This document shows, piece by piece, positions 8,741 through 13,785 of a stretch of DNA of 13,818 nt. A program made the translations under genes and the position numbers. Below the pieces are notes generated by a model. The model worked only from the letters and a program-made list of their open reading frames with translations. It made no database searches and was not told the origin of the DNA. Source of the stretch: Solirubrobacteraceae bacterium. Its GTDB lineage: Bacteria; Actinomycetota; Thermoleophilia; Solirubrobacterales; Solirubrobacteraceae. Position 1 is the stretch's first letter. Each line of letters starts with the position of its first letter. Location: positions 1 through 13,818 of the forward strand of contig JAICJK010000021.1 of assembly GCA_025928415.1 (NCBI GenBank). The letters run 5' to 3'.

Positions 8741-9853
8741 TCAGGTCTGCAGGTAGCGATCCACGAGGTTGATCTCCTGCAGCCGGCGAAGGCCCTCGCG
8801 GATGTCCTTCGCCCGGATCTCCCCCACGCCCTCGACCGTCTCGAGCTCGACGTCGGTCGCGGCGAGCATCTCGTCGAGACCTCCGAACTCCCTGACGATC
8901 TGCTGGACGACCAGCTTGGGCAGGCGCGGGATCCGCCCGAGGATCCGGTAGCCCCGCGGGGAGACCGGGTAGTCGAGCGTGTTGAGCTTGCGGTCGTACC
9001 CCGTCAGCTCGGCCAGGCGGCCGAAGTCCAGGAGGTCCTGGTGGGGCAGGCGGCCGATCTGGTCCAGCGCGGCGGCGAACGCCTCGTCGGAGTCCTCGGC
9101 CAGGTAGTCGTGGACGAGCGCGGCCTTGTCGGCGGCGGTCCCGACCATCGTCTCCTCGAGCTGCATCTCGATCAGCCGGCCCTCGGTGCCCAGCTCGACG
9201 ATGTAGCGCTCGATCTCGACGGCCATGCGCGTCACGAGCTCGGAGCGCTGGAGGACCGTCAGGACGTCGTGCAGCGTGGCGCCGCCCTCGAACTCCAGGG
9301 CGGTCAGGCGGGTGGAGACCTGGTCGAGGCGGGTGCGGTACTTGTCCAGGGTGGCCAGCGCCTGGTTGGCCTTCGCGAGCACCACGGGGATGTCCTCGAG
9401 GATGTACTTCGCCCCGTCGACGTACAGCGAGACGACCTCGCGCCGCTGGGAGATCGCGATCACCAGCGCGTCGGTCTGCTTGGAGACGCGCTCGGCCGTC
9501 CGGTGGCGGGTCCCGGTCTCGAGCGACAGGATCGTCGGGTCGGGGGTGAGCTGGACGTTGGCCCACGTGATCTTCGTCGCGTTCGCGTTGAGCGCGATCG
9601 CGCCGTCCATCTTGGCCACCTGGTACAGGAAGGCCGGCGTGTAGTCGATCTCGAGCTTGATGCCACCTGAGAACAGCGAGTTGAGCTCCTCCGGCTCGCC
9701 GATGACGATGAGGCCACCGGTCCGCGCGTGCACGATGTCGTCGATGCCTTCGCGCAGCGCCGTGCCGGGCGCGACCATCTCGAGCGCCTTTACGAGCCGG
9801 GGCTCTTGGCGGCTGTCGAGCTCATGGAGCTCATCCCCGGGTCGCTGCGCCAT
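8741..9853 (-). CDS. disA: DNA integrity scanning diadenylate cyclase DisA
   Basis: DisA makes the second messenger c-di-AMP from two ATP and pauses at branched DNA. The 370-residue protein has the DAC catalytic domain with MDGAIAL (DGA at 83-85) and TGTRHRTAER (RHR at 116-118), the two ATP-contacting motifs. A helical linker with repeated coiled segments (about 150-285) follows, then a C-terminal helix-hairpin-helix DNA-binding domain (FGGLDEMLAATDVELETVEGVGEIRAKDI). Length and domain order are those of octameric DisA. No in-frame start lies just upstream of the ATG at 9853 and there is no Shine-Dalgarno, which fits the leaderless promoter proposed upstream. It heads the carD-ispD-ispF operon. 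No radA is adjacent inside the window, although radA is its common neighbour in other bacteria. Confidence 0.96.
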   Translation of the reverse strand: MAQRPGDELHELDSRQEPRLVKALEMVAPGTALREGIDDIVHARTGGLIVIGEPEELNSLFSGGIKLEIDYTPAFLYQVAKMDGAIALNANATKITWANVQLTPDPTILSLETGTRHRTAERVSKQTDALVIAISQRREVVSLYVDGAKYILEDIPVVLAKANQALATLDKYRTRLDQVSTRLTALEFEGGATLHDVLTVLQRSELVTRMAVEIERYIVELGTEGRLIEMQLEETMVGTAADKAALVHDYLAEDSDEAFAAALDQIGRLPHQDLLDFGRLAELTGYDRKLNTLDYPVSPRGYRILGRIPRLPKLVVQQIVREFGGLDEMLAATDVELETVEGVGEIRAKDIREGLRRLQEINLVDRYLQT

Positions 9854-9971: not shown

Positions 9972-10001
9972 CCGCCCCGCGGGCGCGTGCGGCTCGCGGG
10001 G

Positions 10002-10030
10002 TTGACAGCCCTGCCCGGCGATGCGAGCCT
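10002..10030 (+). promoter_or_regulatory. Candidate gntR promoter, TTGACA with leaderless start
   Basis: A perfect TTGACA (10002-10007), a 17-base spacer and GAGCCT (10025-10030), which keeps the two most important -10 bases (A2 and T6). Seven bases separate it from the ATG at 10038, so transcription would start at or next to the start codon. This supports 10038 over the upstream in-frame GTG at 9987, which would lie before the promoter. Confidence 0.5.
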
Positions 10031-10037
10031 TGCGGTC

Positions 10038-10754
10038 ATGTCGGTAGACCAGTTTGCGCTGACACCGCTGCGAATTGGTCAGCTCTATGAGAGGATCGCC
10101 GGCCGGCTGCGCGAGGAGATCGCCGCCGGCGCGCTGCCGCCGGGCGCCCGCCTGCCGTCCGAGCGCGACCTGGCCAGGGCGCTGGAGGTCGGCCGGCCGA
10201 GCGTCCGCGAGGCGATCGCCGCGCTGAAGAACGACGGCCTGGTGGAGACGCGCGCCGGGGCCGGCACCTTCGTGACCGCCGATGCGCCTGCGCTCCTGCT
10301 CGACGCGCCGGCGGCGAGCCCGGACACGAGCGTCACCGCGCTGCTGGAGGCCCGGGCGGAGCTCGAGCCCGCGATCGCCGCGCTCGCGGCGCGGCGCGGC
10401 GAGCGCGACCCCGAGCTGGAGGCGCTGCTCGAGTCGATGTCCGGCGTCGCCTCGCTCGGCGACCCCGCGGCGCGCGCCCGCTGGCGCGACGGCGACCGCG
10501 CCTTCCACCGGCGTCTGGCCGCGATGACGGGCAACCCGCTGCTCGCGCGCGTCGGCGAGCTCGTCGCGGCGACGATGGACGAGCCGCTGTGGCGGCGCCT
10601 GCACGACGACGCGGTCACCGACCCGCGGCGCGCCCGCGTCTTCGCCGCCGAGCACCGCCTGATCTACGAGGCCGTCGCCGACGGCGACCCCGAGGCCGCC
10701 GCGCTGTACGCCGGGCGCCACGTCGAGCGCGTGCGCCGCGACATCACCGGATGA
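10038..10754 (+). CDS. GntR-family transcriptional regulator, FadR/FCD subfamily
   Basis: The 238-residue protein has an N-terminal winged helix-turn-helix (about 14-82). LYERIAGRLREEIAAG, LPSERDLARALEVGRPSVREAI and the wing ETRAGAGTFV are the GntR signature in order. A helical FCD effector domain follows, with DRAFHRRLAAMTGNP, EHRLIYEAV and GRHVERV supplying the Asp and His residues that bind metal in this subfamily. Ligands of FCD regulators are usually organic acids or amino-acid breakdown products. The start at 10038 is chosen because the domain starts there and a candidate promoter ends seven bases upstream. Its TGA overlaps an ATG as ATGA at the next gene, so it is in the catabolic operon and probably represses it and itself until substrate is present. 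Confidence 0.93.
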   Translation: MSVDQFALTPLRIGQLYERIAGRLREEIAAGALPPGARLPSERDLARALEVGRPSVREAIAALKNDGLVETRAGAGTFVTADAPALLLDAPAASPDTSVTALLEARAELEPAIAALAARRGERDPELEALLESMSGVASLGDPAARARWRDGDRAFHRRLAAMTGNPLLARVGELVAATMDEPLWRRLHDDAVTDPRRARVFAAEHRLIYEAVADGDPEAAALYAGRHVERVRRDITG

Positions 10755-10765
10755 GAGGACCCGCC

Positions 10766-11674
10766 ATGCCAGCCCAGCCGTTCACCTCGGTCATCCCCGC
10801 GATGATCACCCCGTTCACCGACGACCTCCAGGTCGCCGCGGACCGGCTCGCCGCCAACGCGCGCTCGCTGCAGGCCGCCGGCATCGCGCACGTCGTCGTC
10901 TGCGGGACGATGGGCGAGGCCGGCGCGCTGAGCGACGACGAGCGGCGCGTCGTCGTCGAGACGGTCCTCGCCACCGGGCTGACCGTGAGCGTCGGCGTCT
11001 CCTCCCCCGACGCGCCCACGGCGGCGCGCCACGCCCGCGCGGCCGCCGCGCTCGGCGCCGCCGGGGTCATGTGCCTGCCGCCGACCGCCTACCGCGCCGA
11101 CGACCGCGAGCTCGACGCGCACTTCGTCGCCGTCGCGGACGCCACCGCGCTGCCGCTCATGCTCTACAACAACCCGGAGGCAGCGCGGCAGGACCTGCCG
11201 GCCGCGACCATCGCGCGGCTCGTCGAGGCCCACGACAGCATCGTCGCGGTCAAGGAGTGCTCGGGCGACGCCCGCCGGATCGCCCAGCTCGCCGAGCTGC
11301 TGGGCGAGCGCGCCGCGATCCTCGTCGGCGGCGACGACTGGGCGCTGGAGGGCTACGCCGCGGGCGCGAGCGGCTGGGTCTCGGGCGTGGCGAACGTCGC
11401 CCCGGAGCAGTGCCTGGAGCTCGAGGCCTGCGCCCTGGCCGGCGACCTGACGGCGGCCCGCGCGCTGCACCTGCGCCTGCTCCCCCTCGGGCGCCTGGAC
11501 ATGACGCCCAAGCTCGTGCAGTACTTCAAGGCGGCGCTGGACGAGACCGGCGGGCACGGGGGCCCCGTGCGACCGCCGCGGCTCGCGCTGACCGCCGCCG
11601 AGCAGGCGACCGCGCGCGCCGCCGTCGCCGCCCTGGGCGCCGGGCACGCGGCGGAGCAGGCGCTGCGGGCCTGA
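10766..11674 (+). CDS. DapA/NAL-family lyase, probable 1-pyrroline-4-hydroxy-2-carboxylate deaminase
   Basis: The 302-residue TIM-barrel protein has the family motifs: GIAHVVVCGTMGEAGALSDDER (about 39-60), LPLMLYNNP with Tyr134, and AVKECSGD with Lys163, the Schiff-base lysine. The family includes dihydrodipicolinate synthase, sialic acid lyase and the deaminase that turns pyrroline-hydroxy-carboxylate into 2-ketoglutarate semialdehyde in hydroxyproline breakdown. The following epimerase and FAD dehydrogenase make the last role most likely, but lysine synthesis cannot be excluded from sequence alone. The ATG at 10766 has GAGAGG seven bases upstream. An alternative ATG at 10751 overlaps the gntR stop and would add five residues. 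Its own stop overlaps the next start as TGATG. Confidence 0.85.
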   Translation: MPAQPFTSVIPAMITPFTDDLQVAADRLAANARSLQAAGIAHVVVCGTMGEAGALSDDERRVVVETVLATGLTVSVGVSSPDAPTAARHARAAAALGAAGVMCLPPTAYRADDRELDAHFVAVADATALPLMLYNNPEAARQDLPAATIARLVEAHDSIVAVKECSGDARRIAQLAELLGERAAILVGGDDWALEGYAAGASGWVSGVANVAPEQCLELEACALAGDLTAARALHLRLLPLGRLDMTPKLVQYFKAALDETGGHGGPVRPPRLALTAAEQATARAAVAALGAGHAAEQALRA

Positions 11675-12654
11675 TGCGCGCCGCCCGCGTCCTGCACGCC
11701 GTCGACTCCCACACGGAGGGCATGCCCACGCGGGTGATCACCGGCGGCGTGGGCGTCCTGCCGGGCGCGACGATGCTGGAGCGCAAGCTGCGCTTCGAGC
11801 GCGAGCGCGACGGCCTGCGCAAGCTGCTGATGCGCGAGCCGCGCGGGCACGGGGCGATGTCCGGGGCCATCCTCCAGCCGCCGTGCCGCGAGGACGCCGA
11901 CTGGGGCGTGCTGTTCATCGAGGTCAGCGGCTGCCTGCCGATGTGCGGCCACGGGACGATCGGCGTCGCGACCGTCCTCGTCGAGACCGGCATGGTCGAG
12001 GTCCGCGAGCCCGAGACCGTCATCCGCCTCGACGTGCCGGCGGGCCTCGTCGAGGCCCGCGTCGCGGTGCGGGACGGGCGGGCGCGCGCGGTGACGATCC
12101 GCAACGTGCCCGCCTTCCTGCACGAGGCCGGCGGCGAGGCCGGCGGGGTGCGCTACGACATGGCCTTCGGCGGGAACTTCTACGCGATCGCCGACGCCGC
12201 GTCGGCCGGGCTGGCCGTCGGGCCGCAGCACGCGGGCGAGCTGATCGAGGCCGGCCTGGCGCTGATGGCCGCCGTCCCCGAGCCGGTGCACCCCGAGGAC
12301 CCCGATCTCCGCGGCTGCCGTCACGTCATCTGGACGGCGCCCGGCGCCGACGGCGCGGACGGCCGGGCGGCCACCGCGATCCACCCCGGCTGGGTCGACC
12401 GGTCCCCGTGCGGGACCGGCACCAGCGCCCGGATGGCCCAGCTCTGGTCGCGCGGCGAGCTGGCCCTCGGCGCGCCGTTCGTGCACGAGTCGATCATCGG
12501 GACGCGCTTCGAGGGGCGCCTCGTCGCCGAGGCCACCGTCGGGGGCCGCCCGGCCGCGATCCCCGAGATCACGGGGCGCGCGTGGATCACCGGGATGGGC
12601 CAGTACCTGCTCGATCCCGACGACCCGTTCCCCGAGGGCTTCAGTGTCGGCTGA
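11674..12654 (+). CDS. Proline racemase family, probable 4-hydroxyproline 2-epimerase
   Basis: These enzymes invert the alpha carbon of proline or trans-4-hydroxyproline with a pair of cysteines and no cofactor. The 326-residue product has MCGHGTIG (Cys91) and DRSPCGTGTSAR (Cys246). With both cysteines present it should be a racemase/epimerase and not a trans-3-hydroxyproline dehydratase, which lacks one. VDSHTEGMPTR at the N-terminus and GRAWITGMGQYLLDPDDPFPEGF at the C-terminus are also typical. The catabolic partners suggest trans-4-hydroxy-L-proline to cis-4-hydroxy-D-proline. The ATG at 11674 overlaps the preceding stop by one base. Its last codons form the first copy of a tandem repeat, and a GTG inside them (12644) overlaps the TGA in another frame. 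Confidence 0.92.
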   Translation: MRAARVLHAVDSHTEGMPTRVITGGVGVLPGATMLERKLRFERERDGLRKLLMREPRGHGAMSGAILQPPCREDADWGVLFIEVSGCLPMCGHGTIGVATVLVETGMVEVREPETVIRLDVPAGLVEARVAVRDGRARAVTIRNVPAFLHEAGGEAGGVRYDMAFGGNFYAIADAASAGLAVGPQHAGELIEAGLALMAAVPEPVHPEDPDLRGCRHVIWTAPGADGADGRAATAIHPGWVDRSPCGTGTSARMAQLWSRGELALGAPFVHESIIGTRFEGRLVAEATVGGRPAAIPEITGRAWITGMGQYLLDPDDPFPEGFSVG

Positions 12655-12715
12655 CCCGTCCCCGAGGGCTTCGGTGTCGGCTGACCCGCTCCCCGAGGGC
12701 TTCGGTGTCGGCTGA
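12644..12715 (+). other. Possible relay mini-ORF, 23 codons, within the repeat
   Basis: It starts at GTG 12644, five bases after GAGGG, overlapping the epimerase TGA (12652-12654) by 11 bases. It passes in frame through the second repeat GTG and ends at TGA 12713-12715. The peptide starts MSADPSPRASVSADP and ends PEGFGVG. It has no recognisable function. It may only serve to carry ribosomes to the next start. Translation is not proven. Confidence 0.35.
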
Positions 12716-12746
12716 CGCGTTCCCCGAGGGCTTCGGTGTCGGCTGA
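12705..12746 (+). other. Possible relay mini-ORF, 13 codons, within the repeat
   Basis: It starts at GTG 12705, overlaps the stop of the previous mini-ORF by 11 bases, encodes MSADAFPEGFGVG and ends at TGA 12744-12746, which again overlaps the dehydrogenase GTG (12736) by 11 bases. With the preceding mini-ORF it makes an unbroken chain of overlapping stop/start pairs across the gap. Translation is not proven. Confidence 0.35.
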
Positions 12747-13785
12747 CGCGATCGTCGTCGGGGCCGGGATCTGCGGCGCGTCGGCGGCGTTCGCCCTGCG
12801 CGAGCGCGGCCTCGACGTCCTGCTGGTGGACCGCGGGACGGTCGCGGGCGCCACGACGGGGCTGGGCGAGGGCAACGTCCTGGTGTCCGACAAGCACCCG
12901 GGCCCGGAGCGCGACCTGGCGCTGCTCGGCCGCGCGCTGTGGGCCGAGCTCGGCGTGCGCTTCTCCGCAGCGCGCGTCACGCGCAAGGGCGCGCTCGTGC
13001 TCGGCCACCCCGGCGGCGCGGACGCGTCCGGTTTGGAGCCCGCGCTGGCGCCGGGGACCCGGGCGCTGCTGGAGGCCGGCGACCTGCAGGTCGACCCGGG
13101 CGGGCTCACGCGCGCCCTGGCCGCGCAGGTGCGCGTGCGCGAGGGCGCCGAGGTCACGGGCGTGGGCCCGGGCGCGGTGACGCTGCGCGGCGGCGAGCGC
13201 CTGGCCTGCGAGCACGTGGTGGTGGCGACCGGGCCGTGGGCGGCGAGCCTCACCGGGCTGCCGGTCGAGCCGCGCAAGGGCCAGCTCGTCGCGCTGGCCG
13301 CCCCGCGCGGCCTCGTCGCCCACAAGCTCGTCGAGGCCGGCTACCTCGACGCGGCCGCGGGCGACGCGGCCGAGCTGATGCTCGCGAGCGTGATCGAGCA
13401 GACGCTCGACGGCGACGAGGTGCTCGTGGGCTCCAGCCGCGAGCGCGTCGGCTTCGATCCCGCCGTCCGCCCCGAGGTGACGCGCGCGCTGGTGCAGCGG
13501 GCCGCCCGCTGGGTCCCGGCGCTGCGCGACCTGCCGGTGACGCGCGCATGGTGCGGCTTCCGGCCCTGGCTGCCCGATGGCCTGCCCGCGATCGGCGCCC
13601 TGCAGGACGGCCTCTGGACCACGACCGGCCACGAGGGATCGGGCATCGGGCTCGGGCCCGTCTCGGGGCGGCTGCTCGCCCAGCTCGTCTGCGGCGAGGC
13701 GCCGGACCTCGACCCGGCGCCGTTCGACCCGCGGCGCTTCGCGCGCGGCGCGAGGCCGGCCCGCCTCGCGGCCGAGCGCCGCTGA
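12736..13785 (+). CDS. DadA-like FAD amino-acid dehydrogenase, probable D-hydroxyproline dehydrogenase subunit
   Basis: The 349-residue flavoprotein begins SADAIVVGAGICGASAAFALRERG (GxGxxG at 9-14) with Asp32 for the ADP ribose, followed by GATTGLGEGN. The middle carries VDPGGLTRALA and VVVATGPWAA. The C-terminus has CGFRPWLPDGLPAIG and TTTGHEGSGIGLGPVSGRLLA, the FAD-closing motif of the DAO family. In hydroxyproline catabolism the matching enzyme oxidises cis-4-hydroxy-D-proline to the pyrroline that the DapA-like enzyme deaminates. Some of these enzymes work with extra 2Fe-2S and FAD subunits, which would lie beyond 13785. It is slightly shorter than many family members. The GTG start is the last of four identical repeat-borne start sites, five bases after GAGGG. 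After the stop, the final 33 bases show nothing. Confidence 0.88.
   Translation: MSADAIVVGAGICGASAAFALRERGLDVLLVDRGTVAGATTGLGEGNVLVSDKHPGPERDLALLGRALWAELGVRFSAARVTRKGALVLGHPGGADASGLEPALAPGTRALLEAGDLQVDPGGLTRALAAQVRVREGAEVTGVGPGAVTLRGGERLACEHVVVATGPWAASLTGLPVEPRKGQLVALAAPRGLVAHKLVEAGYLDAAAGDAAELMLASVIEQTLDGDEVLVGSSRERVGFDPAVRPEVTRALVQRAARWVPALRDLPVTRAWCGFRPWLPDGLPAIGALQDGLWTTTGHEGSGIGLGPVSGRLLAQLVCGEAPDLDPAPFDPRRFARGARPARLAAERR

Follow-up and report, generated by a model that had tools for sequence, protein, structure and literature searches.

Results and Discussion

An operon junction built from a tandem repeat

Can a tandem repeat that has come to separate two genes of an operon still deliver ribosomes from the first gene to the second? 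This question was raised by the junction between an epimerase gene and a dehydrogenase gene in the window, a DNA stretch of 13,818 nucleotides that makes up an entire contig in the draft genome of a soil bacterium, derived from a metagenome (669 contigs, 3.25 Mb, 87.5% complete). The gap between the two genes is occupied by repeated units, each with a Shine-Dalgarno-like motif, a start codon and a stop codon (Table 1). On balance, we lean slightly towards reading this array as a tandemly duplicated coupled junction, with a 31-nt unit in four copies, that is probably used as a ribosome relay.

Table 1. Features of the operon and of the array, in window positions.
Feature	Position	Strand	Remarks
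DHDPS-family gene	10766-11674	+	PF00701; start codon choice putative
Proline racemase/4-hydroxyproline epimerase family gene (epimerase)	11674-12654	+	PF05544, E 7e-121
Tandem array	12624-12746	+	Four units (31/30/31/31 nt), each containing a Shine-Dalgarno, a GTG and a TGA
Unit 1	12624-12654		31 nt, TGA last
Unit 2	12655-12684		30 nt, TGA last
Unit 3	12685-12715		31 nt, TGA last
Unit 4	12716-12746		31 nt, TGA last
GAGGG, Shine-Dalgarno-like motif of unit 1	12634-12638	+	Motifs of units 2-4 begin at 12664, 12695 and 12726
GTG codons of the units	12644, 12674, 12705, 12736	+
TGA codons of the units (first base)	12652, 12682, 12713, 12744	+
Overlap GTGTCGGCTGA, unit 1	12644-12654	+	Start of mini-ORF 1 and stop of the epimerase
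Mini-ORF 1	12644-12715	+	23 codons (translation); runs through unit 2; stop TGA 12713-12715
Mini-ORF 2	12705-12746	+	13 codons (translation); dehydrogenase N-terminus plus epimerase C-terminus; stop TGA 12744-12746
FAD-dependent oxidoreductase, DAO family (dehydrogenase)	12736-13785	+	349 aa; PF01266, E 9e-47; probable D-hydroxyproline dehydrogenase, substrate putative

The gene set, which includes a GntR/FCD regulator gene upstream of the DHDPS-family gene, points to a probable operon for hydroxyproline degradation. The top NCBIfam model for the epimerase was 4-hydroxyproline epimerase, with a score of 345.5 bits that is under the cutoff of 376, and the epimerase was absent from all seven genus mates searched. 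As read from the sequence, the TGA of the DHDPS-family gene (11672-11674) and the ATG of the epimerase overlap by 1 nt as TGATG. A simple consensus scan of 11600-13000 revealed no promoter or terminator, which carries little weight in an organism of such high GC content, and Rfam gave no match within the window. Additionally, a DisA-like gene (8741-9853, minus strand) is divergent from the regulator gene (9987-10754, plus strand).

There are 81 nt between the epimerase TGA (12652-12654) and the dehydrogenase GTG. GAGGG-N5-GTG and the 11-nt overlap GTGTCGGCTGA are present in all four units, which vary among themselves at fixed positions. Upon translation, an unbroken chain was found to lead from the epimerase stop at 12652 through 12644-12715 and 12705-12746 to the dehydrogenase GTG at 12736. 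The array contains four stop/start pairs, yet only two successive mini-ORFs; the pair of unit 2 is skipped because this unit is one base short, and GTG 12674, which shares the frame of GTG 12644, opens 13 aa in translation. The array coordinates, the motif spacing and the stop/start chain reported in the first-pass annotation proved exact to the base by sequence, TRF and translation. The identical 11-base overlap at every hop, to which that annotation drew attention, is likewise present in all of them, and it follows automatically from the repeat. For termination-reinitiation, an overlap or a gap of at most about 10 to 20 nt is expected, and an 11-nt overlap was found at each step of the chain.

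A start in the array reads to a later stop overlapping another start because adding the stop offset to the unit length gives a number divisible by 3 (31+8, or 61+8 where the 1-nt deletion is spanned). A relay of this kind is physically feasible. In the mechanism that we propose, an overlapping, coupled epimerase-dehydrogenase junction was duplicated in tandem, and every copy bears the full coupling signal of Shine-Dalgarno, start and stop. A ribosome ending the epimerase could then restart at 12644, again at 12705 and finally at 12736, the dehydrogenase start. Ribosomes may use this chain and thereby keep a coupling that the 81-nt gap would otherwise abolish, and selection would act mainly against duplications that send a reinitiating ribosome into a dead frame. 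It is possible that the ratio of dehydrogenase to epimerase is set by copy number. Independent initiation of the dehydrogenase is possible as well, since unit 4 has its own Shine-Dalgarno.

Rarity of the repeat and chance of a chain

The first-pass annotation had asked whether other operons use the same sequences. Throughout the genome, GTGTCGGCTGA occurs four times, always inside the array, and the 31-base unit has four matches with up to 3 mismatches, every one within the array; other operons were without matches. At the same tolerance, the unit was present in one of the 146 family genomes, the source genome, and in none of the 145 others. The TRF score of the array (224) was tied with the top of 110 arrays in a genome sample of 60 of the 669 contigs (320 kb, arrays scoring at least 50), in which the top score at a period of at least 15 and at least 2.5 copies was 152. 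A genus mate contained arrays scoring 281 and 424 (400 kb). As a repeat, the array is thus strong and unusual, not unique. Its placement relative to genes was compared with that of other tandem arrays (187 tested, about 1.18 Mb plus the window): nine rows had flanking ORFs, and the window array was the sole one of these with all candidate starts more than 20 nt past the stop. A scan of 399 class genomes for twin sites with the -11 architecture returned only the window's own array.

For four copies with the stop 8 nt after the start, an unbroken chain arises in 9 of the 27 spacing combinations modulo 3. Three hops would result if all units were a perfect 31 nt, and the array with the unit 2 deletion gives two; when one spacing is changed by a single base, the chain is kept in three of six cases. 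Given the array, the chain alone is therefore no more than chance readily yields, and selection is not evident from this locus alone.

Origin of the array

To place the array among its relatives, we used 14 distinct epimerase-dehydrogenase junctions, or 15 counting the window, with L011 and L034 representing the same junction. One of these two is from a genome classed in the same family and the other is a named Solirubrobacteraceae contig, and the source organism is accordingly placed, putatively, in that family. A start overlapping the stop by 4 nt is available in 10 of the 14 and one overlapping by 1 nt in another; starts at +54 and +55, each with its own Shine-Dalgarno, are found in two, and one is ambiguous. 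Several of the ten -4 junctions carry alternative in-frame starts, and the -4 start is likely the one in use at those ten. An array was seen in none of the 14, as judged from the sequence printed around each stop. The C-terminus of the epimerase, DPFPxGF, is conserved (with the variant DPYPTGF in L041), which identifies unit 1 as the true 3' end of the gene. The dehydrogenase GTG at 12736 is 8 codons upstream of GxGxxG, a distance matching L010, L011 and L041, which identifies unit 4 as the true dehydrogenase start. With the true gene ends in units 1 and 4, the array is a multiplied form of the ancestral junction, and the predicted mini-ORF peptides are chimeras of both protein ends. Duplication of a coupled junction in place is also suggested by the overlaps (-4 or -1) at 11 of the 14 relatives' junctions together with the lack of arrays among them. 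On this comparison of sequences, a coupled junction that was once single has been expanded in tandem to form the array.

Similar junctions in bacteria

Paired nearby GGAGG-N6-ATGA sites were identified in 10 of the 399 class genomes, and the reversed control motif gave no match among the matches listed for these genomes. Four relays lying between genes could be read. The first leads from an ABC ATPase through 13 aa to an ABC permease (L227), and another leads from an ORF without a Pfam match through 15 aa to a protein kinase (L235). In a third (L229), a TPP enzyme is followed by mini-ORFs of 7 and 22 aa and a short-chain dehydrogenase, with a gap that is likewise 81 nt; all overlaps in this stretch (L229:1512-1600) are -4, and its mini-ORFs are not built from repeats. 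When the DNA of this relay was used as a query, matches were obtained in five of five family genomes, and those beyond its own locus were just short (29 to 123 nt).

The fourth relay leads from a PLP enzyme through 13 aa and 4 aa to a tryptophan dioxygenase (L233). A match to the dioxygenase was present in 29 of 145 family genomes. Twelve loci of this enzyme pair were read; the two genes form a same-strand pair in nine, six of which have a simple -4 junction. A 38-nt duplication was found in genome G143 (L233/L258) and a 23-nt duplication in genome G154 (L267), with genome G130 being ambiguous. The copies are identical at 23 of 27 nt in G143 and at 20 of 23 nt in G154, and both duplications are relay-compatible, the unit plus 1 being divisible by 3. 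We interpret them as two independent duplications of the same junction.

Other twin or repeated Shine-Dalgarno+ATGA sites were also observed. Relay-phase twins between ORFs, with spacings of 29, 20 and 41 nt, occur at L738, L743 and L745 in genomes of the phylum, and at L234/L237 (G148:C19) the start of a 296-aa ORF carries three copies of a GC-rich 31-nt unit. At L741 and L750 (G478, contigs C48 and C289), such sites lie 50 nt apart at two places in the genome; L741 has three copies with 17-aa mini-ORFs followed by a 480-aa ORF, and the two loci possibly represent a dispersed MIRU-like element. One twin stretch is repeated at three places in genome G446 (L737, L747 and L749), where it is perhaps a mobile element.

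Similar junctions in viral contigs

Viral contigs were scanned for twin or triple Shine-Dalgarno+ATGA sites, and at least 412 loci (3.76 Mb) were pooled. The clearest analogue is a 32-nt unit between a glycine-rich ORF and a tail-fibre assembly gene. The glycine-rich ORF has only a weak PHROG match, of unassigned function in PHROG, and is probably a tail-fibre gene in view of the neighboring assembly gene. The unit is present in four copies in L411, L418, L429 and L430 and in three copies in L426. The four-copy contigs are 99.6 to 100% identical to one another and hence perhaps represent one virus, and long flanking matches of L426 to them showed 97.9 to 99.9% identity; copy number therefore varies (3 vs 4) between near-identical phage contigs. 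Each 32-nt unit codes for a chimera of 11 aa that combines the N-terminus of the downstream protein with the C-terminus of the upstream one, and every hop is intact. For the 801-nt region, the named phage and E. coli records yielded no close match. At another locus, L408, a 38-nt unit occurs three times and provides two relay hops.

A viral scan for -11 twins gave 12 loci with 11 distinct twins, 10 of which were in frame among the matches listed; the remaining one is in relay phase and is without a long upstream frame. At L492 and L499, the start region is repeated in frame (30 and 24 nt), resulting in several alternative starts and no relay.

Phase of duplicated junctions

If duplicates are kept only when no ribosomes are lost, relay spacing should be more frequent than dead-frame spacing. 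We compared the two, excluding in-frame pairs, in a test that is exploratory: it was devised after the first matches, its limits were set post hoc, gene calls were crude, kinship was ignored, and the viral loci may include relatives. At least 298 viral Shine-Dalgarno+RTGA tandem arrays were found, 19 of them in a junction context. Among the matches listed, these 19 comprised 12 in relay phase (11 if L411 and L426 count once), one in a dead frame and six in frame. All viral two-copy arrays among the matches listed gave 24 relay and 20 dead; when these were split by context, the relay:dead ratio was 9:1 at junctions vs 15:19 elsewhere (one-sided Fisher p = 0.011, among the matches listed). The eight genomic twins at junctions comprised six in relay phase, none in a dead frame and two in frame.

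In a strict version, pairs were admitted only if both genes were the longest open frames and no more than 50 nt separated the sites, a limit picked after the rows were seen. Among the matches listed, 18 pairs (14 viral and 4 genomic) were in relay phase vs 4 in a dead frame (binomial p = 0.002); with the limit extended to 110 nt, the counts were 18:6 for viral pairs (L492 counted thrice) and 4:0 for genomic pairs. Real chains were formed by 16 of the 22 strict pairs among the matches listed (p 0.026), and L492 and one L304 pair have relay phase without a chain. Again among the matches listed, an extra filter against single-gene readings gave 15:4 (p 0.0096), omission of L236 with its doubtful upstream frame gave 17:4 (p 0.0036), and loose gene calls gave 24:7 of 34, with one array counted thrice.

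The independent junctions of the same architecture and this bias toward relay phase strengthen the relay reading of the window array. More tentatively, and with less confidence than for the window itself, stop-start relay arrays may form a recurrent class in bacteria and phages, in which mainly duplicates that keep the chain or stay in frame survive and slippage adds or removes reinitiation steps, tuning the downstream gene against the upstream gene. If this is true, the window array would be a member with two mini-ORFs. The rule that unit length plus stop offset is divisible by 3 is testable across annotated genomes, and the three- and four-copy phage contigs, together with the dioxygenase operons with single and duplicated junctions, provide a natural series.

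RNA structure and alternative explanations

The alternative that survives best, rather unlikely in our judgment, is a neutral minisatellite: the copies would be products of slippage, the dehydrogenase would be initiated from the unit 4 Shine-Dalgarno, and the chain would be an unused by-product. In its favor, 9 of the 27 spacings would yield a chain anyway, each copy has a Shine-Dalgarno and a start, both proteins are intact at any copy number, the starts of two relatives lie at +54 and +55 behind their own Shine-Dalgarno, and the unit is found in one of 146 family genomes, its own. It is opposed by the relay-phase bias of the other duplicated or twin junctions and by the folding predictions, in which the start is heavily paired in the absence of a translating ribosome.

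In the predicted ensemble, 12644-12658 at the epimerase stop pairs with 12734-12749 at the dehydrogenase start. The predicted cost of opening the start is 26.9 kcal/mol in the native array vs 14.7 kcal/mol when the array is collapsed to one copy, and in idealized arrays it alternates as the copy number rises from 1 to 5 (17.4, 28.1, 23.5, 29.1 and 23.5 kcal/mol). Of 100 four-copy arrays built from random units, just 2 were predicted to reach the opening cost of the consensus. These predictions are the basis of a second alternative, in which coupling would operate through RNA pairing: the start would be hidden by the epimerase stop region and freed by ribosomes, with an effect of odd and even copy numbers and no reinitiation. 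We retain it because 98 of 100 arrays of random units are predicted to hide the start less, and we consider it improbable. Nine array-free junctions of relatives already span 9.8 to 34.9 kcal/mol in predicted opening cost, and a ribosome at the epimerase stop would still leave 17.6 kcal/mol. With the ribosome at the stop of mini-ORF 1 the cost is 20.4 kcal/mol and at the last mini-ORF stop it is just 5.4 kcal/mol, so mini-ORF 2 would matter under unfolding too. As for the fold as a whole, folding was strong against plain shuffles (z -3.2; 6/300) and ordinary against shuffled-unit arrays, of which 102 of 500 had an equally low folding energy; a special fold was therefore rejected.

Insertion of a MIRU-like mobile repeat at the junction resembles the locus in its general look of repeated mini-ORFs in an operon gap, and it is largely refuted, and thus highly implausible, since no unit with up to 3 mismatches occurs elsewhere in the genome or in the 145 other family genomes, which rules out a dispersed repeat, and since unit 1 coincides with the conserved 3' end of the epimerase. 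An assembly artefact could be suspected in a draft of 669 contigs with the array ending about 1 kb short of the contig end, and is scarcely credible because the units differ at fixed positions and the commoner assembly error would be the loss of copies.

Comparison with known systems

If the relay proposed for the window array is used, it would show how an operon can retain translational coupling while repeats separate its genes. The array would also allow two behaviors of post-termination ribosomes to be told apart in a natural setting: local handover, for which the chain is needed, and scanning, for which it is not. Among the papers listed in searches of the open-access literature, as judged from titles and the beginnings of abstracts, none describes a relay produced by tandem duplication of a stop/start junction.

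MIRUs, reportedly described by Supply et al. in 1997, as cited in PMC12548453 and PMC2734929, are close prior art. They insert at start codons, which places their internal ORF in a coupled arrangement, at -4 nt, with the gene that follows (PMC12548453); the statement in the first-pass annotation that no operon junction of this form had been described is not supported in that breadth. Both systems have repeated mini-ORFs in operon gaps with a stop/start overlap to the next gene. MIRUs are dispersed, inserted elements with -4 nt overlaps, whereas the array unit is a local duplication of a junction, confined to one place, and both of its mini-ORFs are coupled by overlaps of 11 nt, not 4.

Gene pairs coupled by termination-reinitiation (PMC10666635, PMC6728339) share with the array the stop/start overlap and local handover of the ribosome. 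Such pairs have one overlap each, in contrast to the four of the array, which are chained by mini-ORFs over 81 nt. Reinitiation is lost or strongly cut when the gap measures 22 nt, as in Haloferax, or 38 nt, as in E. coli (PMC10666635). These native gene pairs agree with the earlier view of an 81-nt gap as exceeding the reach of simple coupling, although a contrary case of reinitiation across 73 nt is cited in the same paper.

In the M. tuberculosis complex, the gap between rnc and fpg1 contains variable tandem repeats, compared with gaps of 1 to 54 bp in other listed mycobacteria, and repeat length shows a modest correlation with mRNA level (PMC2734929). The likeness to the window array lies in a gap filled by tandem repeats whose length is correlated with expression; the difference is that mRNA was measured there, and the available portion of PMC2734929 makes no mention of a stop/start chain. 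Finally, the bicistronic design (PMC12548453) resembles the array in that a mini-ORF brings the ribosome to the following start. Unlike those of the bicistronic design, the mini-ORFs of the array would be fed by the upstream gene, and they originated when the junction itself was duplicated.
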